Positions 40,515 through 43,220 of a stretch of DNA of 64,000 bases are shown here, one piece after another. The notes beneath the pieces were generated by a model. It was not told where the DNA came from. It saw nothing but the letters and a program-made list of their open reading frames with translations, and did not search any database. The translations under genes and the position numbers were made by a program. The stretch is taken from the NCBI GenBank assembly GCA_013423385.1, contig BLZA01000018.1, positions 310,001 to 374,000 on the forward strand, written 5' to 3'. Each line of letters starts with the position of its first letter. Within the stretch, counting starts at the first letter, position 1. The DNA comes from Naganishia liquefaciens. Its lineage: Eukaryota > Basidiomycota > Tremellomycetes > Filobasidiales > Filobasidiaceae.

Positions 40515-43220
40515 TTAACACTGTTCAGGCATGAGATTAGCCACCGGGGACAAGAATTCAAACGACGCGAGCCGGCGAAAAAGGACGCACAGTATCCACG
40601 AGTCTGTTCTTGGGGAACGTGTACCCGGCATCGGCAAAGATCGTCAAATTGGGACTGGAGGGGGCGTCACATGATCAGCAAAGAGAGGCAATGGTCTCAC
40701 TCCTACGCCGCGCACGCACTTGGTATACGCATTTTCGTGAGCGGCAATGTATTCGGCCGTCGGGTAGTCATCGGGGTTGCATCCGACCGTGCCCAAACCG
40801 TCCTTGGTGAAGACTCGGACATAATCTACGGAAAGCCGAATGATTCAGCTCGTCGTCGCGCATACCTGCCGACCGGGACTCACCAATATGCATCTCGTTG
40901 GGGAAATTGAGCTGGGTGAACGTGACCGACTGGAAGTTGTTCGACATTCCGAAATTGAGAATAATGTACATTGGTTCCTCGGGAATGATTCGGTCTCCAA
41001 TCTCGGATATCGGATTCGCCCGGATGGCCGACGCATGAACAGTCCAGCTTCGCACGCCGTTGGCGACCCACGCAATGTACCCATTCTCTCGGTCATTCGT
41101 ATCGGCGTACCATTCCATGGCGTACGTGTTATAGTCGCCACTCGTGTTGGTATAAACATTGTTCGGAACATATGTCAGTGCACTGACGGCCTGTTGGAAC
41201 TCGCCGCCTCGGTAGCTATTCCACTTGGTGATGGTCGGATCATAGATTTGATAGTCGGACGAGCTGTTGAATGGGTAGTAGTAGGCATCGTACGGCGCCA
41301 GTTGCAGCGACTGAGACATTTCACCGGTCGCGACAGAGACATCGATCTGCAAGGCACGAGACGGCCGTCAGCACAAGCCGCCGGAGCATTCCACCTCAGA
41401 GACTTGCCTGGGCCTCGATCACATCGATTTCCGGTGCAGCACGGCCTCGGTAAGTGCCGTCGCTGAGCTTGGGTCCAGGGTGATCTTCGCCGTCACATGT
41501 GCATCGCGAAAGTCTTTGTCCGGGCAGGTAGCTCAGAGGATTTCCATTGTTACCTTCTAGCGTCGATGCGGGACCGGTGCCGTTGGGATAAGTCTGGTTG
41601 GGCAGGGTGCCAAGGTCGCACGTATCGTAAGTATAAGCTGGAAGGCGGTCGTCAGTCTGTGATTCTGCCGTGTATTAGGGTACATCAACTTACGCCTTGA
41701 TAAAAGAAGAGGCGATTTGCGCAAGAAGATGAGTACCCCAACAAACGCGAACGTTGAGCGCGCGAAACTTACCACATCTGCAGTACGTGAAAAGCTGTCA
41801 TCAGCAAGGTCCCACATCACACGCGTCACGAAAACTTACGCCTTCCGTCGTCGCACCATAGCCAGCTCGACCAAGGTTACCCATTGTCCACACACCGGGC
41901 CAGAATCCTCCGACATCGTTGACACCAGGCAGCGAGACCGAGACTTGGGTCGAGGACATGAGCAAGAGCGCTCGACGCGACGGTCTGCACCCTCGAACTC
42001 ACCTTCGAGATAGACGCCATGCGAGAAACAGAGCTTGTTCCAACTCTGCAACATACCACTCTTGAAATTCAAGTCGTGAATCGGCTCCTCCGTCATCGTG
42101 ATCACCAGCTTGCCGTCCCGGGTCGTAATGGCACTCGGGTCGTACCACTCAAAGTCACCCGTCGGCCAGTAGTGGAAATCGACGCCCTCCCAGTACGGAT
42201 CGTCACCGGGGAAAAACGTACGTCCATCAACGCTGAATTCGTCACTGAAAACAAGGGTATAGTCGGATCCATCGAATCCCTTGCGGGTGTACGCCTCGGC
42301 GGGCGTGTCCGGGTCAATCATCGAGGGAAAGTTGCCGAGCTGGGGAACCTGACCGGTCGAATTGATGCCGCCGAGGTTGAACCCGGGCGTCGCGCTGCCT
42401 TCGTCTTTCCGATCGTCCCGGAAATGCACAATGATGGGGAACCCACCAAAGAGCATGATCAGACCGGCGAGCAGGATGAAAATCGTGGCGACATTGAGCC
42501 AGCCTCGCGCGCTCCACAGCTCGAAATTATGCCGTTCATCTTTCCCGCTCGGGTCCGCCGTATGCAGGGCATCATCCATCTCGTCGTCCTTGTCATTCCA
42601 CAAATAAACGCCCGTCCCTGTCGTCGTCTGCTGTGATGGCCCGCCCGTCGACCGCGCCGCCGGACGCACACCGGGCGCAGTGTAGTGGCCCTTGTAGTCG
42701 CTCGCGTACGATGCCTCGGAGACGTTGGAGGAGAATCTGTTGGGCTGCGGCATCGGCGGAGTAGCGATGTGCCCTCGGCCGTTGCCAAGGAGCGGTTGTT
42801 CTTGTGGGTAGCTTTGCGGCAGGGTGTACTGCGCCGGGCCATTCCGTCAGCGGGCGGAATCCATCAGCTGTAAATGTTATTCAAGGCTGACTCACAGCAT
42901 ATGGTCCGTACCCTCCGCCGACTTCCCCACGAGCGATCCCGCTCGCCTCGCTGCTGGAATTATCACTGTGCGTGCGTGGCAACCCGGCAGCCGATCCTCC
43001 GGCTGCTGTACGCGGTTGACTTGACATTACGGGCGATAGTTCGTAAGCTGCTTGAGCGTCACTGAATGGATTGTGGGCCTGCGTAGGTGAATGGCTGATC
43101 GGGATGGGAATCAGCACGATATCGATGGTGGCCTTTGCGCGCGAAACCTGAGACTCACTTGGGCACAAAGGTATATTCTCCTGTATTCCGATCTCTGACG
43201 TTGGTCTCGTTTCTCACCAT
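40515..43220 (-). CDS. KRE6: KRE6/SKN1-type beta-1,6-glucan synthesis protein (GH16-like, type II membrane)
   Basis: Kre6/Skn1 proteins are secretory-pathway membrane proteins needed for beta-1,6-glucan in the cell wall. Eleven exons (minus): 43220-43159, 43094-42896, 42828-42003, 41943-41840, 41777-41773, 41695-41694, 41637-41408, 41346-40884, 40825-40720, 40654-40591, 40520-40515; 2067 nt, 688 residues. An N-terminal cytoplasmic tail with NPFSDAQAAYEL is followed by one transmembrane helix (VATIFILLAGLIMLFGGFPI). The lumenal GH16-like domain has TLVFSDEFSVDGRTF, GGFWPGVWTMGNLGRAGY, WPYTYDTCDLGTLPNQT and the catalytic-type APEIDVIEAQ. The end FPKNRLVDTC is family-like. Two micro-exons (5 and 2 nt) and a 6-nt last exon are needed to keep frame and motif. 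The intron at 41347-41407 is GC-AG. KRE6 versus SKN1 cannot be separated here. Confidence 0.9.
41694..41777 (-). other. KRE6: Two micro-exons of KRE6 (5 nt and 2 nt)
   Basis: On the minus strand, exon atgtg (41777-41773) and exon gc (41695-41694) are each flanked by an AG acceptor and a gtaagt donor. The three introns around them are 61, 77 and 56 nt, normal for this genome. Together they add 7 nt and supply the codons for Met-Trp and the first base of Pro in the family motif EGMWPYTYDTC. Leaving either out breaks the frame. Confidence 0.75.

Follow-up and report, generated by a model that had tools for sequence, protein, structure and literature searches.

A 1-nt exon, supported by SRA reads, was described for the Fusarium gene CYP621A, and the available passages of the same report state that exons of 2-5 bp are known in Arabidopsis, Drosophila and humans (PMC12940212). 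The plant genes APC11 and VPS55 have 1-nt microexons proven by RT-PCR and RNA-seq (PMC8831610). Among basidiomycetes, the shortest exon found by cDNA in bglA of the Tremellomycete Sirobasidium magnum is 5 bp long (PMC9142197) and that of the Phanerochaete P450 genes is 6 bp long (PMC1184071). In the portions available of two Cryptococcus papers, microexons are mentioned merely as a mapping option (PMC3990503, PMC8022950). The open-licence literature gave only a rare-disease database paper for a 2-nt exon by name, and no priority is claimed here.

The window analysed is a stretch of 64,000 nucleotides from Naganishia liquefaciens. A gene on its minus strand is predicted to carry two consecutive micro-exons, ATGTG and GC, separated and flanked by three introns. 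As in CYP621A, an ultra-short exon of a fungal gene lies within a conserved motif, with AG before it and GT after it, and is deduced from phase and from an uninterrupted relative. The excerpted text on CYP621A describes a transcript-confirmed P450 gene with one micro-exon of 1 nt between two introns, while the window gene is predicted from its sequence to have a 2-nt exon, as one of two micro-exons between three introns (PMC12940212). APC11 and VPS55 resemble it in having an exon below 3 nt that the correct protein requires, which in their case was missed by annotation; VPS55 also has a GTRAGT donor and APC11 has intronless relatives. As far as the consulted sections go, these two differ in being plant genes backed by RT-PCR and RNA-seq, whereas the exons of the window gene are predicted from genomic DNA (PMC8831610). 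With S. magnum bglA and the Phanerochaete P450 genes it shares short exons set between ordinary small introns in a basidiomycete; unlike it, those genes show no exon below 5 nt in the text available (PMC9142197, PMC1184071). Stwintrons and zero-length recursive splicing, as presented in the accessible parts of the reports, are similar in the consecutive excision of neighbouring or nested introns, but the window gene would keep two exonic bases and, unlike in stwintrons, no splice element is interrupted by another intron (PMC8469720, PMC12403724, PMC6616335). The predicted ATGTG and GC pair thus joins the ultra-short exons already reported and is near-record small. An earlier sequence-only reading of this DNA had called a 2-nt exon extreme, which is fair, although such an exon is not unprecedented in kind since the available passages report 1-nt exons in Fusarium (PMC12940212) and plants (PMC8831610). 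Less usual are the position of two consecutive micro-exons inside a single Trp-Pro pair and the series of paralogs that surrounds them.

The window gene matches the Pfam profile PF03935 (SKN1_KRE6_Sbg1) in three pieces of 230.7, 159.5 and 88 bits, for a profile cut-off of 30 bits, and the pieces flanking the micro-exon site have Pfam E values of 3.4e-68 and 6.2e-25. It is therefore predicted to encode a KRE6/SKN1-type fungal beta-glucan-synthesis protein, in line with the family first assigned from the letters alone. Its protein is 47-56% identical to those of the named species among the listed homologs, and a sequence search of the PDB at E 0.001 gave no relative. The motif GxWPY of PF03935, which follows NLGRAGYGATTEG, is present in the window gene only if both micro-exons are used. 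Conservation of this motif was assessed in 120 listed homologs of the 973 found, of which 111 were classified by pattern and the other nine were read individually. The individual reading gave WPY in P0017, P0066 and P0119 and WPF in P0060; the remaining five do not cover the site (P0001 and P0006 begin downstream of it, and P0069, P0081 and P0116 exit an intron before YxYxxC). Trp-Pro is found in all 115 listed homologs that span the site, as WPY in 114 and as WPF in one.

Features at the micro-exon site of the window gene (positions in the window; lengths in nt)
Feature	Position	Strand	Length	Sequence and coding	Basis
Exon A	41840..41943	minus	104	encodes ...GFWPGVWTMGNLGRAGYGATTEG; ends GGC	PF03935 match, spliced alignment
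Intron 1	41778..41839	minus	62	GTAAGT...CTGCAG	
Micro-exon ATGTG	41773..41777	minus	5	Met codon and first two bases of Trp codon	
Intron 2	41696..41772	minus	77	GTAAGT...ATCAAG; splits Trp codon	
Micro-exon GC	41694..41695	minus	2	last base of Trp codon and first base of Pro codon	
Intron 3	41638..41693	minus	56	GTAAGT...TTCCAG; splits Pro codon after base 1	
Exon D	41408..41637	minus	230	starts CTTATAC; encodes (P)YTYDTCDLGTLPNQTYPNG...PEIDVIEAQ	PF03935 match

The protein part encoded by exon A ends in GATTEG, and the 202 nt that separate it from exon D are accounted for as 62 + 5 + 77 + 2 + 56. Both micro-exons had been placed at exactly these coordinates in the sequence-only reading, which named no strand, with their AG and GTAAGT borders (CAG|ATGTG|GTAAGT and AAG|GC|GTAAGT, canonical in both cases); the lengths that it gave for the second and third introns stand, while the first has one nucleotide more than the 61 claimed. 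The predicted mRNA reads GGC ATG TGG CCT TAT at the site, coding G M W P Y. GTAAGT is found three times as donor in the 202-nt stretch, where about 0.036 would be expected at the rate of the window. Candidate branch sites are CTGAT in intron 1, CTCAT in intron 2 and CTGAC in intron 3, whose A lies 24, 35 and 15 nt, respectively, from the 3' splice site. In intron 1 another AG falls between this candidate and the acceptor; in intron 2 no AG intervenes, but the candidate is rather far from the splice site and the acceptor is AAG, a less common one. By eye, the junction of exon A with intron 1 (41839) and the 2-nt exon with its donor (41695) share the 12 bases AAGGCGTAAGTT, an identity that consists mostly of splice consensus and coding sequence. 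Further along the gene, after PEIDVIEAQ, there is a probable GC-AG intron (41407-41347, minus strand; CAG|GCAAGT...GCAG), at whose site the related protein P0121 reads EAQVS, compatible with a GT donor.

The alternatives to this arrangement were enumerated over the stretch from GNLG to SYLPG as every GT-AG path that has between one and three introns, none of them shorter than 40 nt. There are 161 paths with one intron, 1,592 with two and 3,180 with three, 4,933 in total, and the frame stays open in 22, 256 and 586 of them, respectively, the micro-exon path included. GxWPY results from a single one of the 4,933, the micro-exon path with its three GTAAGT donors, so that the restoration of the family motif by both micro-exons, already proposed from the letters, is borne out; none of 7,259 paths with up to two introns gives the motif when GC donors are also allowed. 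When GC is skipped, a stop follows after 30 codons; it follows after 29 codons when ATGTG is skipped and after 26 when both are. Both micro-exons would therefore be needed for a functional frame. The earlier statement that only their joint inclusion restores the frame is thus correct for these exons; it fails for cryptic sites generally, as other GT-AG paths stay open.

One of these open paths is an intron of 183 nt from the GTAAGT at 41839 to the acceptor TCACAG at 41657, which skips both micro-exons and yields TTEG-TDDRLPA-YTYD. It combines an open frame, a strong donor and a CAG acceptor, but replaces MWP by seven other residues and would be far longer than the 46-82 nt of the other introns; seven open codons are presumably often expected by chance, and no relative with this form is present among the database proteins seen. 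It is quite unlikely that this intron is the true structure of the gene, and it may occur as a low-level or regulated splice form by which the enzyme is inactivated; as a minor product it would be compatible with the micro-exon form.

The probability that a micro-exon solution arises by chance was estimated with 20,000 shuffles of the inner 192 bases that preserved dinucleotides; exons A and D were kept fixed, as were six bases at the start of the stretch and four at its end. A shuffle counted as a solution if any set of micro-exons, separated by GT-AG introns not shorter than 40 nt, restored NNNTGGC. A solution was obtained in 58 of the 20,000 shuffles with GT-AG borders, in 2 with GTRNGT donors and in none with GTAAGT donors.

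Spliced alignment to 38 reference homologs was carried out with exons of any length allowed, at intron penalties of 8, 12, 16, 20 and 24. When a site model was included, introns of 62, 77 and 56 nt with exons of 5 and 2 nt were found with all 38 references at all five penalties. The model was built from the donors and acceptors of 29 other introns of the window gene and its paralogs (five genes), which the aligner itself had called under a 160-nt limit, not from cDNA, and which include at least one miscall, the GC-AG intron at 41407-41347 being taken as a GT intron. These 29 introns measure 46-82 nt and end in CAG (21), TAG (6) or AAG (2); the three introns at the site are of ordinary length in comparison. 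When the site model was left out, the 62/77/56 structure was found with all 38 references at penalty 8 only, and a run with three references recovered the micro-exons in 3/3 at penalty 5, 1/3 at penalty 10 and 0/3 from penalty 15.

At penalties 12-24, the aligner without the site model chose instead, with all 38 references, one intron of 192 nt with the donor TTC|GTGACG at 41829 and the acceptor at 41638. Exon A is then extended by 10 nt, the product is TTEG-VSFP-YTYD with an open frame, and the micro-exons would be a product of chance. This structure loses the Trp kept by every listed homolog that spans the site, and its donor GTGACG scores -3.6, against +11.1 for GTAAGT. Its length exceeds twice that of the longest of the 29 other introns, which were called under the 160-nt limit, it ignores the three GTAAGT donors of the 202-nt stretch and it does not predict the residues of the relative P0123 described below. 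The single 192-nt intron is accordingly improbable. A gene predictor could easily substitute a false intron of 183 or 192 nt for the GxWPY motif, and ultra-short exons are for this reason probably under-counted.

The GMWPY motif is thus very probably encoded across four exons (...GGC | ATGTG | GC | CTTAT...), joined by a form of recursive splicing that keeps 2 nt. The predicted product across the site is GAAGGCATGTGGCCTTATACT. For fungal introns of such size, recognition across the intron is the established view. The three introns of the site have the size and signals of ordinary introns of these genes and each could therefore be recognised as a unit (intron definition), in which case no micro-exon would need exon recognition. 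Just two bases separate the AG of intron 2 from the donor of intron 3, so that this AG falls within what should be the seat of U1; on this steric argument the two would not be bound together, and the introns would therefore be removed stepwise. If intron 2 is removed first, ATGTG would be joined to GC, leaving ATGTGGC|GTAAGT. Removal of intron 3 first would yield an identical mRNA through the predicted intermediate intron 2-GCCTTATAC. We infer the order of intron removal, as well as the use of this route in the cell. The arrangement suggests that fungi with short introns can decode exons that are invisible to exon definition, and makes splicing order and sterics testable in a small gene.

Consecutive excision would also be implied by a stwintron or by recursive splicing of the zero-length type, with GC not kept and belonging to an external GC-AG donor. 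Stwintrons are known in some fungi, according to the available text of two reports (PMC8469720, PMC12403724), and a GC donor appears to be in use at another place in the window gene (41407). Dropping GC, however, gives ATGTG|CTTATAC, with a stop 30 codons on, which makes this possibility extremely improbable. As to the formal classes, the [D1,2] stwintron was set aside because the frame is broken unless GC is retained, and the zero-length recursive site, an AG directly followed by GT, because the sequence is AG-GC-GTAAGT.

Five loci of the PF03935 family are found in the genome (19.4 Mb, 28 contigs), including the window gene. By spliced alignment, L012 (contig C6) and L013 (contig C27) have at the site an 8-nt exon between two introns, GTCTGGCC and ACATGGCC, respectively. 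L010 (contig C13), which shares 75% identity with the window protein across the aligned stretch, is uninterrupted at the site, with GGCATGTGGCCATAC, and the site is uninterrupted in L011 (contig C17) too, as GLWPYSYN. The site structure across the five paralogs is thus 5+2, 8, 8, uninterrupted and uninterrupted. Because L012 and L013 align with an 8-nt exon there, micro-exons at the GxWPY site appear to be a habit of the family, with L010 as the uninterrupted ruler, and the five genes provide a natural series for the rise and disappearance of micro-exons. Over YTYD-EAQ, L012 is 83% identical to P0032 from the Tremellomycete Naganishia vaughanmartiniae. Several minor features of the paralogs can be mentioned. 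L010, the nearest of them, has three introns in the aligned stretch versus six in the window gene, which looks like intron loss. The most divergent, L011, is 47-51% identical to the other four, and ten introns are predicted in its aligned stretch, with several exons of 28-62 nt. In L013, the intron after the 8-nt exon has a long run of C slightly upstream of the branch candidate CTGAC.

Open reading frames called on unspliced contigs carry translated introns, so that splice sites of relatives can be read through in their protein sequences. P0121, P0122 and P0123 (source JGI; short contigs, probably metagenomes) share 92, 83 and 83% identity, respectively, with the window protein from YTYD to EAQ. 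In all three, YTYDTC is immediately preceded by Ala. This residue fits AG|CN TAY, the acceptor phase of intron 3 of the window gene, and rules out the AG|N TAY phase seen in L012 and L013. The read-through of P0123 extends further upstream, as ...CYCYRFLGVSVHSNQ...LTAYTYDTC. Its sole place compatible with GTAAGT is VS, 67 nt before the acceptor, and for a donor at this VS only a length of 2 (AG|GC), among micro-exons of 1-7 nt ending in TGGC, fits the upstream L-G; no micro-exon length fits the other possible GTRNGT site (69 nt). This fit is one of residues only, shared by ~5% of random open places (3,150/60,467) and by 6/106 beside GTRNGT sites. VSVH at the donor is common to P0123 and P0122, the latter beginning there, 76 nt before its acceptor; these two proteins are 97% alike and hardly independent witnesses. 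They are nearer to L010 (86 and 87% for P0122 and P0123, respectively) than to the window gene (83%), which suggests that the 2-nt arrangement arose before L009 and L010 split and that L010 then lost its introns. A search for orthologous DNA of the site in viral contigs gave no match.

These relatives also bear on the possibility of an assembly error or a pseudogene, where the arrangement would repair an indel that does not exist. The pieces on both sides of the site match Pfam with the low E values given above, P0121-P0123 agree with the acceptor phase of intron 3, and the spliced alignment of two paralogs gives a comparable structure, all of which makes an artefact or a decayed gene very improbable.

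Intron places at the site were inferred by pattern from the residues of 306 proteins, with the same read-through logic. The site is contiguous in 171 of them. An intron ending just before TGG, seen as Q or K before WPY, is present in 62 proteins, exon A continues past the x codon in 19, and the intron lies inside the Gly codon in 12 and after Gly in 2. An intron inside the Pro codon is placed after base 1 in 3 proteins (P0121-P0123) and probably after base 2 in 3 others (P0069, P0116 and P0168). The 34 unplaced proteins comprise 33 unclassified ones and P0188, which has a changed motif. Counting the ATGTG|G of the window gene, about six intron places would fall within the same dozen bases. Intron 2 may derive from the ATG|TGG intron by a shift in position, or it may have been gained anew and divided an exon of 8 nt. 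An introner origin of intron 2 was considered and rejected, its only match in the 19.4 Mb being itself, in a search that skips very common words and can miss weak copies; the 202-nt stretch as a whole likewise matched only itself in this genome under the same word limit. It is possible, and proposed here tentatively, that the 2-nt exon is conserved between species, predates the L009/L010 duplication and adjoins the 5-nt exon, the Trp-Pro pair needing obligatory stepwise splicing at an intron hot spot of about six positions.

The search with exon A gave 66 hits, and those covering over half of the query are 51-83% identical to it. P0296 and P0301 are 100% identical, cover 34% and read GE, not GV. 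P0081 leaves exon A inside the Gly codon (GE) and enters YTYTSC with a preceding Arg, a pattern consistent with a 10-nt micro-exon that has an unspliced intron on each side. P0124 is 98% identical over part of exon D, but at its start the reading is from the other strand of this locus; its contig is probably chimeric and inverted, from the same species or a very close one.
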